Shown here: positions 48,634 to 62,036 of the stretch, piece by piece | Numbering within the stretch: the stretch's first letter is position 1 | How the letters are laid out: each line of letters begins with the position of its first letter | Assembly (NCBI GenBank): GCA_026708685.1 | Contig: JAPOUL010000009.1 | Location: 1-62,036 of the forward strand | Origin: Bacteroidota bacterium | GTDB lineage: Bacteria > Bacteroidota > Rhodothermia > Rhodothermales > Bin80 | Direction of reading: 5' to 3' | DNA: 62,036 bases | The notes under the pieces: model-generated | Told to the model about the DNA's origin: nothing | Databases searched by the model: none | What the model saw: the letters and a program-made list of their open reading frames with translations, nothing else | Translations under genes and position numbers: made by a program

Positions 48634-49905
48634 ATGAACTCTAAATTTAGGCGTAGACGTGGACGTGCAGAATATTTTCATGGTCGAGATGAGATCATGG
48701 ACACATTTGATGCGGTCCTTGAAAACTACCGTTCTATAAACGAGGGTAGCACCTTTTTAATTAAGGGTCCACCCGGTGCGGGAAAGACTGCACTGCTCAC
48801 AAAACTCTCCCAAAAAGCCTTGGCAGCGGATGATCCGTGGGCGGTAGCCAAGATCGGAGTAAAAGATCTGTATGACCCCGTATCACTAGCACAAGCACTC
48901 GGAAAGGCTTACTTCATTGATGCTGAAATTGCAATAGAAGTTGGTATTAAGGTTGTTGCGGGTAAGGTGGTCGGACATGTAGCAGGACTTGCCACTCCAA
49001 CAGAAATTCTCCGACATCTGACCCCCGAAACAGGACTGATCCTTGTGCTTGATGAAGCTCAAAGGTTACGTAATATACCGAATGAATCGGAGATTCACGT
49101 CGTAGCTGAGGATACCTTAAATTTGATTCATAATGGCGATGTTGGACATCCAGTAATGCTTCTTACAGCGGGATTGGGAACGACCGAATCCGCCTACGAT
49201 TCTCTGGGGGTTTCACGGTTTGAGGATAATTGCCGTATACGTCTTGGATCATTAGATCATCAATCTACCTGTGCTGTTATACGAGATCTCATTGTTGCAG
49301 AGGGGGGTGTGGTTAAGCCACCACCAAGCTGGGTTAAAGACATCGCGGAGCACACCCACGGATGGCCCCACCACATCATATCATATGCGGGAGCTGCTGC
49401 GGATCACCTCGTCGATATAAATAGAATGCCTACGGAAGAAGACCTACAGATTGTGCTTGCTCAGGGTCGTGTGAATCAGATAGATTATTACCAGACCCGT
49501 GCCAAAGGCATTTCCAAGAAGGATCGACAGATTCTGGCACAACTTTTTATCGATCTTCCACCAGACGGGACTGTGGACAAAGAAGATATCATGTTTGCAT
49601 TTAAGGAGAAATACACGGTAGAGGATACTTGCAAGTTTTTCGAGAACACACTTCACAGAGGGATACTTGATGAAAGACAGGATGGTGACTATGGGATTCC
49701 TATTCCCTCCTTGCATGCATGGCTTGTTGATGAGTACGCTAGAAACAAAAGCCAAGACATTCCACAGACATCCAAGCAGCTATCTCCCATGCCCGACCAG
49801 ATACTGCTTCCTTCTAATAAAGATGATCCATCTGGTGTGAAGAAAGATAAAGGTGATGACGAAGACAAGCGTAAAGGTCAAGGCGAGTTTTCAATGGAAC
49901 GATAA
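48634..49905 (+). CDS. AAA ATPase (AAA_16/ORC-STAND-like) with charged C-terminal tail
   Basis: Protein of 423 residues from the ATG at 48634 (a GTG codon precedes it). Opens with EYFHGRDEIMDTFDAVLENY, the start of ORC/STAND-type NTPases; Walker A GPPGAGKT (about 45-52), Walker B LILVLDEAQRLR (about 133), sensor-like VMLLTAGLGTTES. A winged-helix-like C-terminal part (SKKDRQILAQLFIDLPPDG) follows. The last 40 residues are rich in Lys/Asp (KDDPSGVKKDKGDDEDK) and probably disordered. No partner gene is adjacent. The setting next to the decayed defence island suggests defence or element maintenance; not proven. Confidence 0.75.
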   Translation: MNSKFRRRRGRAEYFHGRDEIMDTFDAVLENYRSINEGSTFLIKGPPGAGKTALLTKLSQKALAADDPWAVAKIGVKDLYDPVSLAQALGKAYFIDAEIAIEVGIKVVAGKVVGHVAGLATPTEILRHLTPETGLILVLDEAQRLRNIPNESEIHVVAEDTLNLIHNGDVGHPVMLLTAGLGTTESAYDSLGVSRFEDNCRIRLGSLDHQSTCAVIRDLIVAEGGVVKPPPSWVKDIAEHTHGWPHHIISYAGAAADHLVDINRMPTEEDLQIVLAQGRVNQIDYYQTRAKGISKKDRQILAQLFIDLPPDGTVDKEDIMFAFKEKYTVEDTCKFFENTLHRGILDERQDGDYGIPIPSLHAWLVDEYARNKSQDIPQTSKQLSPMPDQILLPSNKDDPSGVKKDKGDDEDKRKGQGEFSMER

Positions 49906-52642: not shown

Positions 52643-53869
52643 TCACTGGCTACTAAGTAAATCAATGATTGCTTGTTCTATGGATTCAGGGCTTTCTTGA
52701 TGAATATAGGAGCCATATTCAAGAACCTGATGGGTTCCCATGGGCATCTGGTTCACCCAAGAAGTATGAAACTCACCCCACATTTTACGTCCCTCAGGTG
52801 AATCACCAATCCAAATGGGGCTATCTGATGCACGCCCTGCCGTCAATACGACTGTCGGAACCGAAGGCACTGCCGTAATCTCAGACTTTGTTTGTTCATC
52901 TATGATCGACGCATACATGTTAAACTCCAAACCAGTACCACCAGGGAGTGTTGACTGAAAACGCTTCAGACGATTCCAGTAGGATTGCCATGCGTCGGCA
53001 TCAAAAGCTTGCCACATAGTAGCCTGTCCGTCATAGTGTGGATCTATAAACACAACTCCCCCAATATCATCTTCATATACGTCTATGAACTGGCGGGCAA
53101 TCCAAGAGCCAGCTGCATGCGTGACCAATAGATAGGGTGGAGCGGCATCGGCTGATTGAAGCAATTGATATAATTGATTCGTCATCTGTTCAAGACTTGG
53201 AGACTCCTTTAATTCCGTTGACAAACCTAATCCAGGTCGGTCATAAGCTATCACTCGAAATGAAGACGCTAAGTTTTGATGAAGTAATTCCCATGAGGTT
53301 AGATCATCCCCAATTCCACTGATCAATACGATCGTAACAGGTCCACTTCCTGCATCCACATAATTCATCTCTGTGCCGTCAATCTTGGCTGTTTGTCCAA
53401 GTGGGTAAGAATCTCCAAGAAGCCATGGGGCAGGCTCGGATGCATCAAGATCCACTCCTGTCATATTCGTGACAGTCGCTTCATCAATAATGATATGATC
53501 GGCATCTGATCCAGGAGGGGCCATAATTACCCCACCAAAGCCTCCCCACGGATCGTTGCATACTCCATGGTAAATACCGTCAGGAAGGCGAACCAATGTG
53601 CAGGGAAGATCAAATGAAGGAGTCCATACGAAGGATAAGCTATCCGAAGTCACGCGGATATCTCTAAACTCAAAAGGTCCATAATTTTCTACTTCCAGAG
53701 TGATCTTGAGTCCATCCTCCGAGTTGCGAACTTTATAGACCGAATCCATGTATCGGCCAGTCCTATGAATGATCCGCCCAACCCAGTCTCCATCCTCAAT
53801 GACTTGAGCATAGATCTCAGTCATTGGGTTAGCCATGATCACTACAATCAGTAGTACTTTTTTCCACAT
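52643..53869 (-). CDS. Alpha/beta-hydrolase-fold protein without nucleophile serine
   Basis: Protein of 408 residues with a signal peptide (to about IYAQ). A beta-rich N-terminal module (about 25-130) precedes an alpha/beta-hydrolase fold: VTIVLISGIGDDLTSW (oxyanion region), VIAYDRPGLGLS, then at the nucleophile elbow LLVTHAAGSWIARQF, where Gly-His-Ser-x-Gly has become Thr-His-Ala-Ala-Gly (A252, codon GCA). The later acid strand VVFIDPHYDG and the His in GSYIHQESPESI are kept. It is therefore likely inactive as a serine hydrolase, or acts as a binding protein. Its first 41 bp overlap the end of the TPR gene, so it is expressed with it. Confidence 0.78.
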   Translation of the reverse strand: MWKKVLLIVVIMANPMTEIYAQVIEDGDWVGRIIHRTGRYMDSVYKVRNSEDGLKITLEVENYGPFEFRDIRVTSDSLSFVWTPSFDLPCTLVRLPDGIYHGVCNDPWGGFGGVIMAPPGSDADHIIIDEATVTNMTGVDLDASEPAPWLLGDSYPLGQTAKIDGTEMNYVDAGSGPVTIVLISGIGDDLTSWELLHQNLASSFRVIAYDRPGLGLSTELKESPSLEQMTNQLYQLLQSADAAPPYLLVTHAAGSWIARQFIDVYEDDIGGVVFIDPHYDGQATMWQAFDADAWQSYWNRLKRFQSTLPGGTGLEFNMYASIIDEQTKSEITAVPSVPTVVLTAGRASDSPIWIGDSPEGRKMWGEFHTSWVNQMPMGTHQVLEYGSYIHQESPESIEQAIIDLLSSQ

Positions 53870-55118
53870 TGTTGTTCTGATTCCAATCGTCTAATTGTTG
53901 CAAATAATTCTGAGCAATCAAATGGTCTGGTTCTCGATCCAAGAGTTCAAGCCATACGATACGAGCTGCATCTGGCATTCTACTTTGTACATATGCTACA
54001 CCAAGATTCAATCGGGCAGCACTCAAATCTGGATCAGCACGTAAAATGGCTTCCAACCGCTTGATGGCTTCGTCATAGTCTCCACATTCAATATATAAGG
54101 TCGCAATATTGGTTTGCATAAACAATGCGAGTCCTGATGGAACTTCAATCGTCAACCCATTCTTGAAGGCCTCAATGGCACGGCCGTACTTTTTTGATTC
54201 TCGCAGGCGGTTGCCAAGTTCAATCCAATTCGCTGGTGATCCTGGGTCGTTATTGATGGCATTCTGAGCTTCGTTGACGCGTTGTTGCAACTGCTGTGCC
54301 TTTTCAGCACGCTCAAAATAAACCTGTGCATCATCCTCTAGACCAAGCCTCATATATACCTGTCCAAGGTTGAACTGTGCACCATGATGCCAAGACCAAT
54401 GTTGTGCAACGGTTTCAAGGTATGGACGAGCTGCCTCGGCAGAATCCAGACGAAAATACTGGGTGCCAACGATATACTGATAGTCTAAATCATCTGGTCG
54501 TAAGTTCAAACCGGCCAGAGACATCTCCAGAGCATCATGCAGATCTCCCGTCTCCTCCAGTAATTGACCAAGCCACATATAGGTCGTCGTATGTTCAGGG
54601 TCAATGGAAAGAGCCTGTTCATACGCAGCTATAGCACTATCTGGTACTCCTAACTTTGCATAAGCCCGTCCAAGTTCATGGTAGAGAGCAGTGGATGGTC
54701 CAACCTCGGATTCTTCTGCCAGATAATAATTAACGGCATCACGTAGTTTGCCCCGCCGAAAACTGTTGAGCCCCATATCAAATCTTGCCCCTGGATAGTA
54801 TGGATCGATTTCCAAGACGACCTGATAGGCAGCCTGGGCGACATCAATTCGATTGAGTTGGGTATAGATTTTTCCACGCAAAAAATGAAGATCTGCTAAG
54901 TCGGCAAAATGAACCTCTGCACTGTCGGTGTACGCCAGAGCCACTTCATACACTCCGCGGCTAAATGCCTTTTCGGCTTCAACCATGTACCTAGCAACGG
55001 TTGGAGAAAGAAGCTGCCTCTGCTTTTCGGCAATTCTCTCGGGCTGCTGACAGCCAGATATCAAAATGATCAAACAGAAAAGAGTTACCCATAGGGCATC
55101 TGGATTCGGTATCTTCAT
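53829..55118 (-). CDS. TPR-repeat lipoprotein
   Basis: Protein of 429 residues from the ATG at 55118, giving a standard lipoprotein signal (WVTLFCLIILISGC); the frame to 55172 is longer without a better signal. At least eight tetratricopeptide repeats (for example ALYHELGRAYAKLGVPDSAI, TTYMWLGQLLEETGDLHDAL) form a binding superhelix. Such lipoproteins scaffold complexes at the outer or inner membrane. It follows the first CRTAC1 gene on the same strand by about 105 bp and overlaps the hydrolase gene, suggesting one operon with the CRTAC1 proteins. Confidence 0.85.
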   Translation of the reverse strand: MKIPNPDALWVTLFCLIILISGCQQPERIAEKQRQLLSPTVARYMVEAEKAFSRGVYEVALAYTDSAEVHFADLADLHFLRGKIYTQLNRIDVAQAAYQVVLEIDPYYPGARFDMGLNSFRRGKLRDAVNYYLAEESEVGPSTALYHELGRAYAKLGVPDSAIAAYEQALSIDPEHTTTYMWLGQLLEETGDLHDALEMSLAGLNLRPDDLDYQYIVGTQYFRLDSAEAARPYLETVAQHWSWHHGAQFNLGQVYMRLGLEDDAQVYFERAEKAQQLQQRVNEAQNAINNDPGSPANWIELGNRLRESKKYGRAIEAFKNGLTIEVPSGLALFMQTNIATLYIECGDYDEAIKRLEAILRADPDLSAARLNLGVAYVQSRMPDAARIVWLELLDREPDHLIAQNYLQQLDDWNQNNNVEKSTTDCSDHG

Positions 55119-55223
55119 CCAGTATTGATGTTGAGACCAACAGGTTTCAACATCAGAACAATAGTGCAGCATTCAATCGTACAATGTGGTAAAAAGAGTG
55201 GTATGGAAGTTTCCAGGTATCGT

Positions 55224-56909
55224 TCACAGTTCACCTTCTATCAATGTGAGCATCCCAGCCGGTATCGTTGACATTTGGTTCAAGATTCCACTGGGCCAGA
55301 GAATCTCTAAGGAATCTACGGTTTCTACCATCCCAAGTCCAAATACCGGCCACTGCTGACTTTGGGATAGATAACTGGTCCCGTTACGGACATAGCGTTC
55401 TTGCCATGATCCATTGGCTTTAAGGCGAACACGGGTGCCAATCGCGTCTTTGTTACTCTGGGTTCCAATCAACTGCACCGTCAAAGAGTGCCCAGGTTCA
55501 GTATCGTTACGCCATAAGTGGGCAGGGCCTCCATTTTCGGTAATCAATACATCTGGATCCCCATCACCATCATAATCTGCCCATGCAGCACCGCGTCCTA
55601 ACAGTGAATCTGAAAGTACACCAATTGGCTCTGCGACTGAAAATCGTCCATTGCCAACATTAATATACATCTGGGTGAGTTGTTTAAAGGTGATTCCTTC
55701 TTCGACTTCTGCAATATCATCGGTGATGTGACCATTCGCCGTGATCAAGTCAAGGTCGCTATCAAGGTCAAAATCTGCAAGGATCATTCCGAAGGTGAGC
55801 GTTGGAAGACTTGTCCGTCCAATCTGGGAAACAGCTGCTCGTTCAATGAAAATTCCGCTACCAGCATGGCGATAGACTCCCACCATTTCGCCAGAAAAAT
55901 GTCCAATAAACACGGTTTCTTCTCCCGTCTCATCTACGACTCCCATTTCAAGGCCCATCCCTGCCCGTGCCCGTCCATTTTCATCAAAGGCTATCCCACT
56001 GGTAACTCCTTTTTCAATGAATGTGCCATCGCCTTTATTTTCAAACAAAAGATCATTCTGGGTGTCATTGGCGACAATCAAGTCGGGCCAACGGTCCTTA
56101 TTGTAATCTAAACTTGAAGCACCAAGCGTCTTCCCAGGAAGCCCACTAAAATCCTCGGAGCGTTCTTCAAACGTACCGTCACCCTGATTCACATAAAATC
56201 GTCCAGAAATTTCTTCGTACTGTTCTGGTGTGCAATAGGATTTTTTATCACCTACTCTCGTGCAGAAGATATCTATTTCTGGAGTCCATTGGACGTAATT
56301 GCCAATATATAAATCCAGCCATCCGTCCAGATTTGCATCAAAAAATACACTTGCCGTACTCCATTCACGATACTGTCCAAGACCGGCTTCTTCGGTGATT
56401 TCTTGAAAAAATCCTTGATCGTTACGAAGGAGAAAATTTTTAAATAATGCTGTGACAAAGAGATCAGCATCTCCGTCATTATCGTAGTCAGCGGCATTCA
56501 CACCAAAAGCATAACTACGAATTGATTCTAATCCAGATTCTGTAGTCACATCTATAAATGTTCCCTCTGAGCTTCCTTGAAACAAGCGAAGTGCAGGCTG
56601 CTCTACGGTAGAGTCCGATGGAAATTCACTTCCGGCTACGAGCACAATGTCGAGGATCTGATCTCCATTATAGTCAAAAAAACCGCCACCTGCCCCCATT
56701 GTTTCGGGAAACCATTTTTCCCCAAATGCTCCCGTTTCATGCCGGAACATGCCCAATCCAGACGCTTCGGTCACATCAGTAAAAACAATCTGTACATCTC
56801 GCAGAGATGGCTCAGAATCATTGGACTCAGGCTCTGATTGACTACATCCTACGAAACAGGCCAGCAAAAAAAGTGCACTGATCTGAAGGACTCTCCACTT
56901 AGATCCCAT
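55224..56909 (-). CDS. CRTAC1-family FG-GAP/ASPIC-UnbV lipoprotein (copy 3)
   Basis: Protein of 561 residues from the ATG at 56909, which overlaps the upstream stop by 11 bp and gives a lipobox (CFVGC). A frame to 57119 lies inside the upstream gene. FG-GAP/VCBS repeats carry calcium-type loops (DYDNDGDADLFV, DANLDGWLDLYIGNY, DYDGDGDPDVLI), forming a beta-propeller. The last about 70 residues are the ASPIC/UnbV domain (RYVRNGTSYLSQSQQ, VDSLEILWPSG). Family members are surface proteins of unknown role, often beside TPR lipoproteins. Confidence 0.88.
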   Translation of the reverse strand: MGSKWRVLQISALFLLACFVGCSQSEPESNDSEPSLRDVQIVFTDVTEASGLGMFRHETGAFGEKWFPETMGAGGGFFDYNGDQILDIVLVAGSEFPSDSTVEQPALRLFQGSSEGTFIDVTTESGLESIRSYAFGVNAADYDNDGDADLFVTALFKNFLLRNDQGFFQEITEEAGLGQYREWSTASVFFDANLDGWLDLYIGNYVQWTPEIDIFCTRVGDKKSYCTPEQYEEISGRFYVNQGDGTFEERSEDFSGLPGKTLGASSLDYNKDRWPDLIVANDTQNDLLFENKGDGTFIEKGVTSGIAFDENGRARAGMGLEMGVVDETGEETVFIGHFSGEMVGVYRHAGSGIFIERAAVSQIGRTSLPTLTFGMILADFDLDSDLDLITANGHITDDIAEVEEGITFKQLTQMYINVGNGRFSVAEPIGVLSDSLLGRGAAWADYDGDGDPDVLITENGGPAHLWRNDTEPGHSLTVQLIGTQSNKDAIGTRVRLKANGSWQERYVRNGTSYLSQSQQWPVFGLGMVETVDSLEILWPSGILNQMSTIPAGMLTLIEGEL

Positions 56910-58566
56910 TTTCTTCAAGATGTATCGTCGTATTGACGGGTATTTCATACAGACGTGTTTCCAGCCCGCTGGGCCATCGTACCAATAAGCTGTCTGGAAC
57001 ATGCTGCAATCCAAAAAATGCTGCAGACTCAGAATGTGACAGATAACTTGATCCACTTCGGATGCGCCGAACCTGCATGTTTCCTTGACTCCAGAGATGA
57101 ATTTGTGCACCATACGCATTGCGATTGCTGATCGTTCCAGTCAGTTGAACGCGAAGCCATTTCTTTTCCTGGAGATCATTGCGCCACAGATGGGCGGGTC
57201 CATTATTCTCGATCAGGAGTACATCTAAATCGCCGTCCTGATCATAATCCCCCGTTGCCAGTCCACGCCCCACAAACGTTTCTTTCAGCGCACCGTCTGC
57301 GGGCATCTCTGAGAAGATGCCTGTTCCATCATTCAGAAAGAGTTGAGGACGTTGACGAAACGTGATTCCATCCACAATCTGTGCGATATGGGTTTGAACA
57401 TGGCCGTTTGCAATGAGCAAATCTAGATCTGCATCCAGATCAACATCAAAAAGGACTAACCCAAAGGTCAAGGTCTTAAAACTCGGCAGTCCAATTCGTG
57501 ATGTAGCGGCACGGTCAGTAAAACTTCCATTGCCTCTATGTTTGTAGACTCCGACCGTTTCGTGTGAAAAATTTCCGATAAAAATGGAGGGTTCTCCTGA
57601 ATCATCAACTACCCCAACATCAATCCCCATTCCAGCCCGTGGTTTCCCATGCTGATCATAGGCAATTCCACTGTAGATTCCGTTTTCCAGAAACGTGCCA
57701 TCTCGTTGGTTCATAAAGAGCATATCCCGTTCTGTATCATTGGCAACCACTACATCAGGCCATCCGTCTTGGTTGACATCCAGCTCGGCGACCCCCAGTG
57801 TTTTATCACGAATCGCATCCACCCCCCCCCAAAATCCTGCCTGTTCAGTCACATCCTTGAAGGAACCATCTCCTTGATTCTCATAATACCGACTTGCAAT
57901 GCCCTCATAGACTTCGGGAGTACAGTACACTTTATTTCCTCCAAAACTGCAATAGATATCATCTTTGGGAGTCCAATGAACATAGGTCCCGACATAAAGA
58001 TCTAAATAGCCATCTCGATTGCCATCAAAAAACATTGCACTGGTGCTCCATTCACTGACCTGCCCAACTCCAGCTATTTCCCCCACTTCCTCAAAAATTC
58101 CCCCTTGATTACGGAGTAGCAGATCATTACCCACAGTAGTCACAAAAATATCCTGATCACCGTCATTATCATAATCGCCGATCGTCACGCCGAGACTGTA
58201 TACCCTCAGGATAGACAGTCCGGCAGGCTGGGTTACTTCTTCAAAGCCTCCGTTGTCGAGGTTGCGAAAGAGCCTCAATGCAGGATGTGCGCCGAGGAGT
58301 CTCTCTCCCTCAAATGCACCGCCAGTCACGACGAGGATATCCTGCCATCCGTCTTGATCATAGTCAAAAAAAGCACCTCCTCCACCGACAATTTCGGGAG
58401 CCCAGGATTCTCCAAACCCACCATTGACATGTACAACCCCTGCCAATCCAGCTTCTTCAGTGACGTCTGTTAACTGAATCAAAGGGGCATTGAGTTCTTG
58501 AGTAGTCACTTGACCACATCCCGCCACGAGGATCACTCCGATCAGCAAAACACAAATGTGACGCAT
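56899..58566 (-). CDS. CRTAC1-family FG-GAP/ASPIC-UnbV lipoprotein (copy 2), with a nine-G tract
   Basis: Protein of 555 residues from the ATG at 58566 (lipobox VAGC); the longer frame to 58605 overlaps the upstream gene. FG-GAP loops DYDNDGDQDIFV, DGNRDGYLDLYVGTY and DYDQDGDLDVLL, with a C-terminal ASPIC/UnbV domain (RRIRSGSSYLSHSES). Compared with its two tandem paralogues it has a few extra residues at FWGGVDAIRDK, encoded around a run of nine G on the coding strand. The upstream copy ends 2 bp before this start, so the genes are coupled. Confidence 0.88.
   Translation of the reverse strand: MRHICVLLIGVILVAGCGQVTTQELNAPLIQLTDVTEEAGLAGVVHVNGGFGESWAPEIVGGGGAFFDYDQDGWQDILVVTGGAFEGERLLGAHPALRLFRNLDNGGFEEVTQPAGLSILRVYSLGVTIGDYDNDGDQDIFVTTVGNDLLLRNQGGIFEEVGEIAGVGQVSEWSTSAMFFDGNRDGYLDLYVGTYVHWTPKDDIYCSFGGNKVYCTPEVYEGIASRYYENQGDGSFKDVTEQAGFWGGVDAIRDKTLGVAELDVNQDGWPDVVVANDTERDMLFMNQRDGTFLENGIYSGIAYDQHGKPRAGMGIDVGVVDDSGEPSIFIGNFSHETVGVYKHRGNGSFTDRAATSRIGLPSFKTLTFGLVLFDVDLDADLDLLIANGHVQTHIAQIVDGITFRQRPQLFLNDGTGIFSEMPADGALKETFVGRGLATGDYDQDGDLDVLLIENNGPAHLWRNDLQEKKWLRVQLTGTISNRNAYGAQIHLWSQGNMQVRRIRSGSSYLSHSESAAFFGLQHVPDSLLVRWPSGLETRLYEIPVNTTIHLEENGI
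57822..57830. repeat. Homopolymer of nine C (nine G on coding strand) inside copy 2 of CRTAC1
   Basis: C at 57822-57830, encoding part of FWGGV. The tract is unique in length within the coding part of this window and falls where the two paralogues have no matching residues. A change by one base would shift the frame and cut off the rest of the propeller and ASPIC domain. Confidence 0.7.
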
Positions 58567-58568
58567 GA

Positions 58569-60293
58569 TTAATGAATGATTCCAGACATCGGGCGTTGCG
58601 TCCATCCCTGTTGCCCCTCTGTAATATGAATTTCCGTATTCACGGGCAGATCATACAACACTTGTGAATGATTCATGGGCCAGTCTACTCTGATGCTATC
58701 AATGACTTCAATATTCATTAATCCAAATGAGGCTACGATTTCGTTCTGAGACAAATAACTGGATCCTGAACGAATACGACGCTCTTGAACTTGTCCTCCG
58801 GCATAGATACGAATTCGAGAACCAAATGCATCTCGATTGCCAACGGTGCCCGTCAAGGTGACACGAAGCCAGTTACGGCCTTGAGCATCATTGCGCCACA
58901 GGTGGACGGGCCCGTTATTTTCGACGATGAGTAGATCAAGATCTCCATCGCGGTCATAGTCACCATAAGCAGCCCCGCGGGCGACCATCTCGATGGTTAG
59001 TGGCAGAGTCCTTGACGGTGACACTTCCTGAAAAAATCCATGCCCATTATTTTCAAATAACTGTGCTTTCTGCTCATAGGTGATCTTATCCTGTCCCACC
59101 AGCCGATCGGGATAGACATGCCCATTGGCTACAAACAGATCCAGATCCATATCCAAATCAATGTCCAAGAGCATGAGACCAAAGGTGAGTGTATTTAAAC
59201 TGGGTTGACCAATCTTAGAAATGGCCGCACGATCTTTAAACAAGCCATTGCCTAAATAGTGATAGACACCGATCATTTCTGAGGAAAAGTTTCCTACAAA
59301 GATCGTGGGAGTACCGGTTGTATCTACGACTCCGATGTCGATCCCCATTCCTGCACGAGCTTCCCCATGTTCACTGAAAGCCATGCCACTCTCAACGCCT
59401 CGTTCTGAGAACCCACCATCCCCATTATTGAGAAAAAAGAGATCGCCCTCTCCGTCATTGGCCACCACCAAATCCGACCATATGTCTTGATTAAAATCCC
59501 ATTCGGCGATGCCGAGGGCTTTCCCAAGTGAATGATATAATCCAGATTCATGTGTGCGTTCTATAAAGGATCCATCTCCCACGGCCTGATAATAACGACT
59601 TGGCATCCCTTCGTAATCCGCAGGGATACAGTACAGTTTCTCAAGTCCACCTTCGGGGCAGAATTTATCGGTTTCTGGAGTCCAGTCCGCATAATTTCCA
59701 ACATATACATCAAGCCACCCATCAAGGTTGGCATCTACCCAGAGGGCAGAGCTGCTCCACTCATCCTCAGAAGCAAGGCCTGCAGATTCACCTACCTGTC
59801 TAAACACTCCATCCATATTTTCAAGAAGCATGTTTTCATTCAAGTTGGTGACCAATATATCCTGATCTCCATCATTATCATAATCGGCGGTAGCAAGTCC
59901 AAGCGTGTAGGCATGAAGATCTCGGAGTCCGACATCATCTGTTACATCTTCAAATGTGCCATCACCTACATTCCGATACATCCATAGGGGTTTATACCAG
60001 GGATGTGGCATGCGATCCCAGAATCCACCCCCTGCAAGAAGAATATCCAGCCAGCCATCTCCGTCATAGTCCACAAAGGCAGCTCCCGAGCCCATCTGCT
60101 CGGCATAGTATTTCTTACCATCTGCACCATTATCATGCCGAAACATACCAAGACCAGACTCGGAGGTTACTTCAGTCAGTTGAATGTACTCTTTTTGAGG
60201 CTCCTGTGGACTCTGGCAACCGAGCCCCCACCAAAAGACAGAAAAAATAGGAATAATCCCGTATCTATGGATACAATGTGCTAGTGATATCAT
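58569..60293 (-). CDS. CRTAC1-family FG-GAP/ASPIC-UnbV lipoprotein (copy 1, first of three)
   Basis: Protein of 574 residues with a lipobox (WGLGC). FG-GAP loops include DYDGDGWLDILLAGG, DYDNDGDQDILVTNL, DANLDGWLDVYVGNY and DYDRDGDLDLLIVENN; ASPIC/UnbV is at the C-terminus (RRIRSGSSYLSQNE, IDSIRVDWP). It shares the PETDKFCP/PEDIFC type cysteine block with the other two (TPETDKFCPEGGLEKLYCIP). First gene of the CRTAC1 x3 - TPR - hydrolase series; its promoter should lie in 60294-60520. Confidence 0.88.
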   Translation of the reverse strand: MISLAHCIHRYGIIPIFSVFWWGLGCQSPQEPQKEYIQLTEVTSESGLGMFRHDNGADGKKYYAEQMGSGAAFVDYDGDGWLDILLAGGGFWDRMPHPWYKPLWMYRNVGDGTFEDVTDDVGLRDLHAYTLGLATADYDNDGDQDILVTNLNENMLLENMDGVFRQVGESAGLASEDEWSSSALWVDANLDGWLDVYVGNYADWTPETDKFCPEGGLEKLYCIPADYEGMPSRYYQAVGDGSFIERTHESGLYHSLGKALGIAEWDFNQDIWSDLVVANDGEGDLFFLNNGDGGFSERGVESGMAFSEHGEARAGMGIDIGVVDTTGTPTIFVGNFSSEMIGVYHYLGNGLFKDRAAISKIGQPSLNTLTFGLMLLDIDLDMDLDLFVANGHVYPDRLVGQDKITYEQKAQLFENNGHGFFQEVSPSRTLPLTIEMVARGAAYGDYDRDGDLDLLIVENNGPVHLWRNDAQGRNWLRVTLTGTVGNRDAFGSRIRIYAGGQVQERRIRSGSSYLSQNEIVASFGLMNIEVIDSIRVDWPMNHSQVLYDLPVNTEIHITEGQQGWTQRPMSGIIH

Positions 60294-60521
60294 CTTTCAA
60301 AGACGTAGACTCAGGACTATGGATTCTATCATACCAATGCATGATGAAGATGCAAACACAAATCGTTAATAATCGCTCAAAGATTGAAGATTCCGCCTTT
60401 TTCATGAACCACCTGAAAAATGAACCCACCCGCTTTTGTAAAGCCCACATACATTCTTTTTATGACTATTATCTACTATGAGATAACGAGTCAATTTATC
60501 AGTGATTGATTTCAGAAGATA

Positions 60522-61787
60522 CTATCTGATTGATTCACTTTCCCAGAGCATGCGAATAGGTGCAGAGTATATTCTGTCACCATACTTTCTGCAGAACTCT
60601 CCATCATAGAACAACACACCACATTTAAATCGATCTTCTTGAGAATCCCTCAATTTTCTCAATCCCTTAAAATCAGATCTATCGATAGATGCACCTGACT
60701 TCACTTCGATACCCACTAATTCAAATGCACCGAGTTCTATGATGATATCTACTTCAAAGCCATCTTGATCCCGAAGATGATAGAATTTATATGGTTCATA
60801 CGAACAACTTGCCTGTCGTTTTAATTCCTGTAAGACAAAAGATTCAACAAGCTGCCCATACAATGAACGATTTTTCCGCAGAGATTGTGCATTGGTTCTA
60901 AGCAAACTACTTGCAATCCCAGTATCGCCAATGTGAATCTTAGGTGTTTTTATGAGGCGTTTCAATTGATTGTTATACCAAACAGGTAGCCGTTCAATCA
61001 GAAACTGGCGTTCCAGTAGAGTCAAATAATTTCTCACGGTATGATGATTCATCTTCAGTTTCTTTGCGATGAAAGAAACATTCAAAAGTTGACTTGATAG
61101 GCTGGCCGCGGCAGCCAGTATTTGAGGAAATGTTTCAGATGATTGAATCTTGGCCAACTTGACGACATCTTTCTGAACAAGAGATTCAACATAACTTTGG
61201 TACCAAGGAAGATGGGTACGATCAGAGATACGGGTAAGTACCTCTGGATAGCCTCCAGATACAATTCTCTCTGAAAGGTTACTCTTTAAGCGCTCGTACC
61301 TTCCGGTCTTAAACGTCTCACTAAATAGATTTTCTACGAAATTGGCGGAGCCATTTTGTTCAATCTCCTGTTGGGACAATGGATGCAGGTGCACGATCTG
61401 CATACGACCCACAAACGCGTCAGCAAATCCCTGAACATGTAGCAGATTGGTTGACCCCGTCAGGATAAATCTTCCTGGTAGTCTGTTTTCATCCACTGAT
61501 ACTTTGATTGCTCTGTACAATTTTGGCACATATTGTACCTCATCAAGAATGGTATGACTCGGTAGATTGTCTACAAACCCTCTTGGGTCATCTTCTGCAT
61601 ACTGTCGGGTATCTTCGTCATCAAATGTGAAGTAAGAATAATCTCGTAGCTGTCCAACCTTTTTGGCGAGCGTCGTTTTTCCACATTGCCGTGGCCCTTG
61701 GATGAGAACAATTGGTGTATCTTCAAGCGCCTCGGCAAGCAAGAACTCAGATGCACGTGGAATCATATTAGAATCCGAAACTTTCAT
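60522..61787 (-). CDS. ATP-binding protein with DUF4143 domain
   Basis: Protein of 421 residues. N-terminal AAA_14-type ATPase: Walker A QGPRQCGKTT (30-39), Walker B-like HTILDEVQY, sensor FILTGSTN. The DUF4143 C-terminal domain starts at about 205 and includes a winged helix (FIAKKLKMNHHTVRNYLTLL) and a PDDEXK-like end (GFEVDIIIELG...GIEVKSG). These proteins are abundant in genomes with many mobile elements; function unproven, possibly DNA binding or nuclease. Its 5' flank is a 23-bp-period repeat array, unusual for a promoter region. Confidence 0.88.
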   Translation of the reverse strand: MKVSDSNMIPRASEFLLAEALEDTPIVLIQGPRQCGKTTLAKKVGQLRDYSYFTFDDEDTRQYAEDDPRGFVDNLPSHTILDEVQYVPKLYRAIKVSVDENRLPGRFILTGSTNLLHVQGFADAFVGRMQIVHLHPLSQQEIEQNGSANFVENLFSETFKTGRYERLKSNLSERIVSGGYPEVLTRISDRTHLPWYQSYVESLVQKDVVKLAKIQSSETFPQILAAAASLSSQLLNVSFIAKKLKMNHHTVRNYLTLLERQFLIERLPVWYNNQLKRLIKTPKIHIGDTGIASSLLRTNAQSLRKNRSLYGQLVESFVLQELKRQASCSYEPYKFYHLRDQDGFEVDIIIELGAFELVGIEVKSGASIDRSDFKGLRKLRDSQEDRFKCGVLFYDGEFCRKYGDRIYSAPIRMLWESESIR

Positions 61788-61851
61788 TAGTTTTTGAGAA
61801 ATAATAGGTGTAGTCTAATCTCAGAGTCTCAATCAAGAGATTATGTTTTCG

Positions 61852-62036
61852 GTAGATTTGCATTATACGCTTCGGTAGATTTGCAGTTTCCATACCCGTA
61901 GATTTGCAGATAGGTCTCGGTAGATTTGCAGTTTTCATACCCGTAGATTTGCAAAATAGATGTCGGTAGATTTGCAGTTTTCATACCCGTAGATTTGCAA
62001 GATAGATGTCGGTAGATTTGCAGTTTTCATACCCGT
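61852..62036. repeat. 23-bp-period tandem repeat array with GTAGATTTGCA core, open at right edge
   Basis: The core GTAGATTTGCA starts at 61852, 61875, 61898, 61920, 61943, 61966, 61989 and 62012, with a truncated ninth at 62035. Spacing is 23 bp except for one step of 22. Two half-units alternate: one with CGGTAG...GCAGTTTTCATAC and one with CCGTAG...GCAAAATAGATGT, giving a 46-bp higher-order unit. The inner copies are nearly identical and the outermost left copies have diverged, as in an array growing from the right. It lies 65 bp upstream of the DUF4143 ATPase start. Total length cannot be seen. Confidence 0.9.

Follow-up and report, generated by a model that had tools for sequence, protein, structure and literature searches.

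At one end of the window, by which we mean the whole stretch of 62,036 nucleotides analysed here, a tightly spaced direct repeat stands in front of a gene for a DUF4143 ATPase, and the locus raises the question of what such an array is for and which protein recognises it. The initial annotation had described eight full copies of an 11-mer at a strict 23-bp step. Eight exact copies of GTAGATTTGCA were located, starting at 61852, 61875, 61898, 61920, 61943, 61966, 61989 and 62012. The steps between them are 23, 23, 22, 23, 23, 23 and 23 bp, so that the described spacing holds for six of the seven and one is 22 bp. Eight exact 11-mers within 185 bases are far beyond chance. There is no further exact copy anywhere else in the 62-kb window, in which about 20 matches with two mismatches would be expected by chance. 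Elsewhere in the same genome (G000) five more exact copies occur; one of these marks the border of another array, with three units, on contig C121.

The units were delimited on the minus strand, as was the gene. Unit 1, the gene-proximal one, lies at 61852–61874, followed by unit 2 at 61875–61897, unit 3 (22 bp) at 61898–61919, unit 4 at 61920–61942, unit 5 at 61943–61965, unit 6 at 61966–61988, unit 7 at 61989–62011, and unit 8 with the beginning of a ninth at 62012–62036. The whole array thus spans 61852–62036. With 62036 bases the contig (G000:C162) has exactly the length of the window; the array runs into its end, as had been noted, and eight copies are a lower bound. By reading of the sequence, a 64-bp leader (61788–61851, minus strand) separates the gene start from the gene-proximal repeat. 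TRF scored a period of 46 (4.0 copies, 91% matches, score 298) above a period of 23 (score 149) because two spacer types alternate. The proposed 46-bp super-unit is therefore present here, but it is a local feature shared by a few relatives (L025, L029 and L108).

Several identities could be discarded. A CRISPR array is ruled out, as had been argued, since the two spacer types alternate and recur at a period of 22–23 bp; so is a coding repeat, since stop codons were found in all six frames of the array. A known RNA element was set aside after an Rfam scan of 60000–62036 gave zero family matches. An assembly artefact, which had been named as a possible undoing of the array, is ruled out by the sister genome G007, where the orthologous gene (87% identical) is preceded at the same place by a longer, partly degenerate array (L012 2832–3146). 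The suggestion that all copies could be bound on one face of the DNA holds only approximately, since 22–23 bp correspond to 2.1–2.2 turns at 10.5 bp per turn.

The adjoining gene and its predicted protein

The gene next to the array (60522–61787, minus strand) encodes a 421-residue AAA_14–winged helix–DUF4143 ATPase, which is the PADLOC defence candidate PDC-S01, as judged from its open reading frame, Pfam and PADLOC. Pfam matched AAA_14 with an E-value of 2.6e-27 (95.8 bits, cut-off 27) and DUF4143 with 1e-41 (142.8 bits, cut-off 28.1). Such AAA_14–DUF4143 ATPases are what we take to be COG1373. The PADLOC model for PDC-S01 (PDLC04790) matched residues 7–417 of 421 with 497 bits, and it matched 27 of the 27 members of alignment A2, which comprises relatives of the window protein. 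PDC-S01 is a candidate single-gene anti-phage system with putative activity. The accessible part of the report on these candidates assigns PDC-S01 a nuclease and describes experimental validation as pending for most PDCs (PMC12988326).

An AlphaFold2 model built from 27 relatives (mean pLDDT 83.4, pTM 0.80) starts with an ATPase domain, continues through helices to a winged helix and closes with a nuclease-like domain. The AAA/P-loop ATPase domain (residues 13–142; 61362–61751, minus strand), delimited from the model, Pfam and A2, carries the Walker A motif GPRQCGKTT, and G31, P32, R33, Q34, G36, K37, T38 and T39 are invariant in A2. Between the ATPase and nuclease-like parts, the modelled domain of residues 219–286 (60930–61133, minus strand) is a winged helix by the order of its secondary structure, with helices at 219–229, 237–244 and 248–260 and strands at 264–267 and 283–286. 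Its third helix, residues 248–260 (61008–61046, minus strand), is the putative recognition helix, as suggested by the model and by the covariation described below. The DUF4143 domain (residues 289–414; 60546–60923, minus strand) is PD-(D/E)XK-like according to Pfam, A2 and the model, and holds the A2-invariant residues E345, D347, E351 and K363.

Among solved folds the best match was the archaeal Walker ATPase PABY2304 (2qen; Z 13.1, rmsd 5.2, 242 residues aligned), followed by SSO1545 (2fna; Z 11.9, rmsd 5.5, 243 aligned); single-domain AAA entries in the same comparison had Z values of 10–12. An ATPase and winged-helix arrangement of the STAND or archaeal Walker kind is a possibility for the window protein. 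A sequence search of solved structures returned weak P-loop matches alone (Rix7, E 0.003–0.005), and Foldseek against viral models returned clamp loaders and other AAA proteins, which was uninformative. Farther from the array, at 53829–60293 (minus strand), three consecutive paralogous FG-GAP/UnbV_ASPIC-type proteins are followed by a TPR-like one; the protein at 58569–60293 was scanned and the others were assigned by sight.

The array accompanies one clade of DUF4143 genes

Ten genomes of the genus contain 67 DUF4143 domain matches, with 14 in G000 and 13 in G007. We examined 65 loci and placed 54 in a tree, the 11 others being left out because the 5′ part of the gene was missing. Arrays precede 12 of the 14 genes of one supported clade and none of the 40 DUF4143 genes of other subfamilies, which rules out the array as a property of all DUF4143 genes. 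Eight of the 12 were strong by autocorrelation; the other four (L031, L042, L059 and L060) were weak but above their own shuffles and were confirmed by eye from their units. The two exceptions in the clade are L043, with no visible array, and L056, with two weak units. Among the 40, for which periods of 14–79 bp were covered, L069 was the sole one above its own shuffles (score 15 at period 20, where the shuffles reached at most 11). The unit letters vary between genes (TGCAAATCTACCG, TGACGATTAGTCG, TGAAAATCTGCCG and TGACAATCTGCCG); the 23-bp step, the orientation and the shape of the core are constant. Arrays can be long in the lineage of the window, with about 25 units in L029 and L101 and eight or more in the window itself. 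A two-unit pattern searched in 114 genomes of the order was found at seven places in three genomes. By gene-search coordinates each place directly precedes a clade gene, one of these genes being frameshifted, and the reversed control was empty. DUF4143 genes of G000 on contigs C48 and C117 are broken over several frames and have intact paralogues elsewhere in the genome, which suggests turnover of the family.

A wider scan with a 14-protein alignment yielded 80 loci from many phyla at 46–87% identity. From these, 73 made up the matrix set; L144, with too little upstream sequence, and six loci of the window genus were left out. When scored with a position-weight matrix trained on these same loci, 73 of 73 showed a chain of two or more units in the 400 bp that precede the gene; at least three of these loci (L101, L103 and L106) are closely related to the group of the window. 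The 73 loci hold 253 units in total, with 171 steps of 23 bp and nine of 22 bp. Controls were near zero: 0/73 for the reverse complement, 0 in five shuffle sets, 0/73 for gene bodies and 1/68 for downstream flanks. On the gene strand, each 22–23-bp unit contains one directional 13-bp core with the consensus TTnCRATYRGCCG. Core columns reach up to 2 bits, and most spacer columns are below 0.4. The initial annotation had taken GTAGATTTGCA as the unit; the meaningful unit is instead this directional core of about 13 bp on the gene strand, with letters that depend on the gene, and in the window it reads TGCAAATCTACCG/CGG.

Arrays extend to more distant relatives within the order (L187–L193 and L196, with a 22-bp step in L192 and L193). 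At about 30–40% identity most relatives have no array, and in L197, L200 and L205 autocorrelation hints at arrays with other letters. The family is also found on 415 plasmid records, and some of those inspected lie near transposases or conjugation genes. Thirteen plasmid relatives were examined: seven have 22-bp arrays, two have 23-bp arrays, and three from Thermus and one from Emticicia have no array. The association with a DUF4143 gene first noticed in the window holds across phyla. On the sequence evidence, the array travels with one protein clade, in one orientation and before the gene, across many phyla. We conclude that it is a real, widespread cis element of one PDC-S01 clade.

Arrays apart from an intact gene

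Arrays found without a DUF4143 gene in many places had been named as grounds for doubting the association. Fifty genomes, chosen for carrying the gene, were searched allowing up to two mismatches. The pattern occurred at 130 places (1 in the reversed control), of which 124 are upstream of a family gene, 119 within 700 bp before the home gene and five before others. The remaining six comprise one just after a gene, three without an intact gene adjoining, on two contigs of one genome, and two weak, chance-like places. In wider draws, searched with no mismatch, six of the 369 genomes from one class had the pattern, as did 17 of the 396 from one phylum, with reversed controls of 0 in both. Four of these 23 genomes were already known carriers. 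An intact family gene directly follows the array in 15 of the 23, a decayed one in two (L252, and L290 as judged by eye), and in six there is no family gene nearby. Arrays without the gene therefore exist, but most arrays precede it.

Three of the orphan genomes (G642, G826 and G472) contain no family gene at an E-value of 1e-20. A two-unit orphan array occupies the same place in two genomes (L294 and L298), before a transporter-like gene, and this common position suggests that some orphans may be kept for use. Another orphan, of four TGAC-type units (L239 2450–2532, G114:C94), sits among other genes, none of the family being close by. The three-unit array of G000 (G000:C121:44467–44533; L011 1501–1560) has the same core and stands alone, 95 bp before an AAA_16-like ATPase gene (G000:C121:43251–44372). 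Copies 97% and 58% identical to that gene have no array, and the array as a property of ATPase genes at large was rejected, since the plus-strand AAA_16-like copies looked at lack it. In the genus this AAA_16-like family is greatly expanded, with 61 matches in G000, 60, 57 and 48 in three relatives and 1–4 in three others; the window copy is at 48634–49752 (plus strand). At L243 (G127:C8) two units of the upstream array recur immediately behind the stop codon, about 1376 bp after the gene start and with unchanged orientation, which would fit a duplication of the locus or its movement together with the array.

Promoter-like letters in the gene-proximal units

In 61 of the 73 loci a start codon lies at a distance of −1 to 4 bp from the end of the last core, and in 57 of them this distance is 0–2 bp. 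In these 61 near-start loci, core position 3 differs by the rank of the unit. It is A in 56 of 61 proximal units; G (36), T (21) or A (4) in the next unit; and T (35), A (11), G (10) or C (2) in the third. The commonest proximal hexamers are TACGAT (23), TACAAT (18) and TACACT (11), and 18 bp upstream the preceding unit offers TTGCAA (29) or TTTCAA (13). Proximal TA was found in 56 loci near the start (within 4 bp) and in one far from it, and proximal units without TA in five near and 11 far (Fisher p 1.4e-8). A Shine-Dalgarno-like 4-mer is absent from 60 of the 61 near-start loci and present in one.

From these letters we infer that TACRAT is a −10 box and TTGCAA or TTTCAA a −35 box, and that transcription would start at or next to the ATG to give a leaderless message. 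The letters and spacing of sigma-70 −35 and −10 boxes fit 56 of the 61 near-start relatives. Such a reading would explain why position 3 differs by unit rank. It would also explain how 22–23 bp can suit operator and promoter alike, as in most relatives this step equals what a −35/−10 spacing of 17–18 bp needs. The window array does not fit: here and at other TG-type loci the array stands apart from the start codon, without the leaderless layout.

Recognition of the array

The protein tree mixes phyla: its 13 groups need 24 changes, where 12 would be the minimum (50 loci, random draw). Across phyla a shared core accompanies a single gene family; together with such a tree, this makes it likely that the recogniser of the array travels with the gene. 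The adjacent ATPase, put forward at the outset as a candidate binder, is indeed the best candidate, and its winged helix would be the part that binds the units. Covariation between protein and DNA bears on this proposal. Residue 249, at the start of the putative recognition helix, was the best protein column for core base 2 (R2 0.75), with N or H accompanying G and P or Q accompanying T. This association comes mostly from one clade and could be explained by phylogeny; the only further changes at residue 249 are in L171 (Ala, TGAC) and the window pair (His–His, TGCA). Tests at the other core positions gave no recognition-helix signal. Two L012 unit strings in the test were typed by hand. We regard the covariation at residue 249 as suggestive.

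Proposed role of the array and competing explanations

We propose that the array is the putative operator of the adjoining PDC-S01 gene, bound by the gene's own product, with a leaderless promoter in most relatives, and we consider this fairly probable. Each 22–23-bp unit would offer one directional core of about 13 bp. In most relatives, the position-3 A of the last unit would make the −10 box, the preceding unit would supply the −35 box 18 bp upstream, and transcription would begin at or beside the ATG. Several ATPase–nuclease molecules could sit side by side on the units through their winged helices, covering the promoter and keeping a potentially harmful ATPase–nuclease low until they are drawn off. 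In the Bacteroidota-type lineage of the window the units are of the TG variant and arrays can stop tens of bases short of the gene; there they would serve as an operator upstream of a separate promoter. Counting against the operator reading, very long arrays exceed the need of a simple repressor.

We think it unlikely that the array is at once ligand and trigger. In such a scheme, ATPase–nuclease molecules of this very common candidate defence family would stack on a 22–23-bp-step array serving as operator and leaderless promoter together, and the row would be titrated away or disrupted by an invader, which would induce the gene and free the nuclease; the letters and the recognition helix would drift together and give each paralogue a private address.

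It also strikes us as improbable that the array is an iteron-like site for mobility or replication. Array and ATPase–nuclease would then make up a small selfish element, with the array as the end that the protein recognises in order to copy or move the element. Mobility of this kind would fit the many DUF4143 paralogues per genome (14 in G000, 13 in G007), the phylum-mixing protein tree, the plasmid records with transposases or conjugation genes near some relatives, the repeated units after the L243 gene and the existence of orphan arrays. An element of this sort is harder to reconcile with arrays that are one-sided (downstream in 1/68), keep a constant register with the start codon and carry promoter-like sequence in their two gene-proximal units.

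A similarly low probability attaches to the array as a sensor platform, on which the ATPase–nuclease is stored in a row until phage takeover unseats it, de-represses the gene and frees the protein. The fold nearest to 2qen and 2fna (about 242 residues), the nuclease-like domain, the status of PDC-S01 as candidate defence and the arrays of the window lineage, which far exceed the need of a repressor, are all compatible with it. Against it, a stored or switched activity is purely hypothetical, and the anti-phage role of the family is putative in the accessible parts of the literature.

Very improbable, in our judgement, is a host factor as the binder, or an array that works as RNA, with the ATPase as a passenger. 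The solo G000 array before an unrelated AAA_16-like ATPase and the orphan arrays would suit such an arrangement. In many phyla, however, the core accompanies a single gene family, the 97% and 58% identical AAA_16-like copies have no array, the predicted start site would leave the array untranscribed in most loci, and no Rfam match was found. A neutral minisatellite grown by slippage beside the gene by chance can be dismissed: local expansion is evident in the window, with its 46-bp super-unit, and in L101 and L164, but across phyla the core is conserved, the spacer free and the orientation single, and 73 of 73 loci have the array with controls near 0.

If the operator reading holds, the array gives a large clade of a common family of mysterious function a concrete short-DNA ligand, and binding, repression and induction of the PDC-S01 clade become addressable together with short DNA. 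It would also provide a rule for the start codons and promoters of clade genes, which would be leaderless with −35 and −10 boxes inside the last two repeats, and leftover arrays would be a route to decayed gene copies.

Comparison with known systems

Plasmid iterons are direct repeats of one orientation, spaced by roughly two turns of the helix, beside the gene for a winged-helix Rep protein. The arrays resemble them in orientation, approximate spacing and a neighbouring gene for a winged-helix protein. They differ in being mostly chromosomal here, phased with the start codon and provided with promoter-like letters, and they are not known to function in replication. The ATPase and the following domain of the window protein can be aligned with PABY2304 and SSO1545 over model residues 9–297. 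The protein differs from them in that sequence identity is about 20% and the alignment does not reach the DUF4143 domain. For neither of the two does the literature covered describe an array.

The PDC-S01 model matches the window protein and its A2 relatives and also covers array-free DUF4143 genes (L017, L058, L036 and, more weakly, L064). The accessible parts of PMC12988326 and PMC13356809 mention no cis array for PDC-S01, and the array is undescribed in the open-access literature searched. An AAA_14–DUF4143 gene of Thermus thermophilus, TT_P0211, is 6.6-fold up with plasmid in an Argonaute-positive strain according to the accessible part of PMC4406477. A link between this response and an array was set aside, since the Thermus relatives fetched have no array.

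The accessible part of the report on RptR describes a separate 9-kDa repressor, the product of the first gene of a defence island, which represses the island from direct repeats that it binds across the −10 box; the operator comprises three 9-bp repeats with the palindrome TAGCTA, and the islands encode restriction-modification (PMC12255303). An RptR-type operator is ruled out here, since the core consensus lacks TAGCTA. To the extent that source allows comparison, in both systems direct repeats overlap a −10 box, in our case a predicted one, in the promoter of a defence or candidate defence gene. The array differs in its core, which is about 13 bp, non-palindromic and recurs every 22–23 bp, and in its putative binder, which would be the ATPase–nuclease itself. 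As far as the accessible text of that report goes, RptR is the nearest working analogue of the array, with a different protein, site and spacing.
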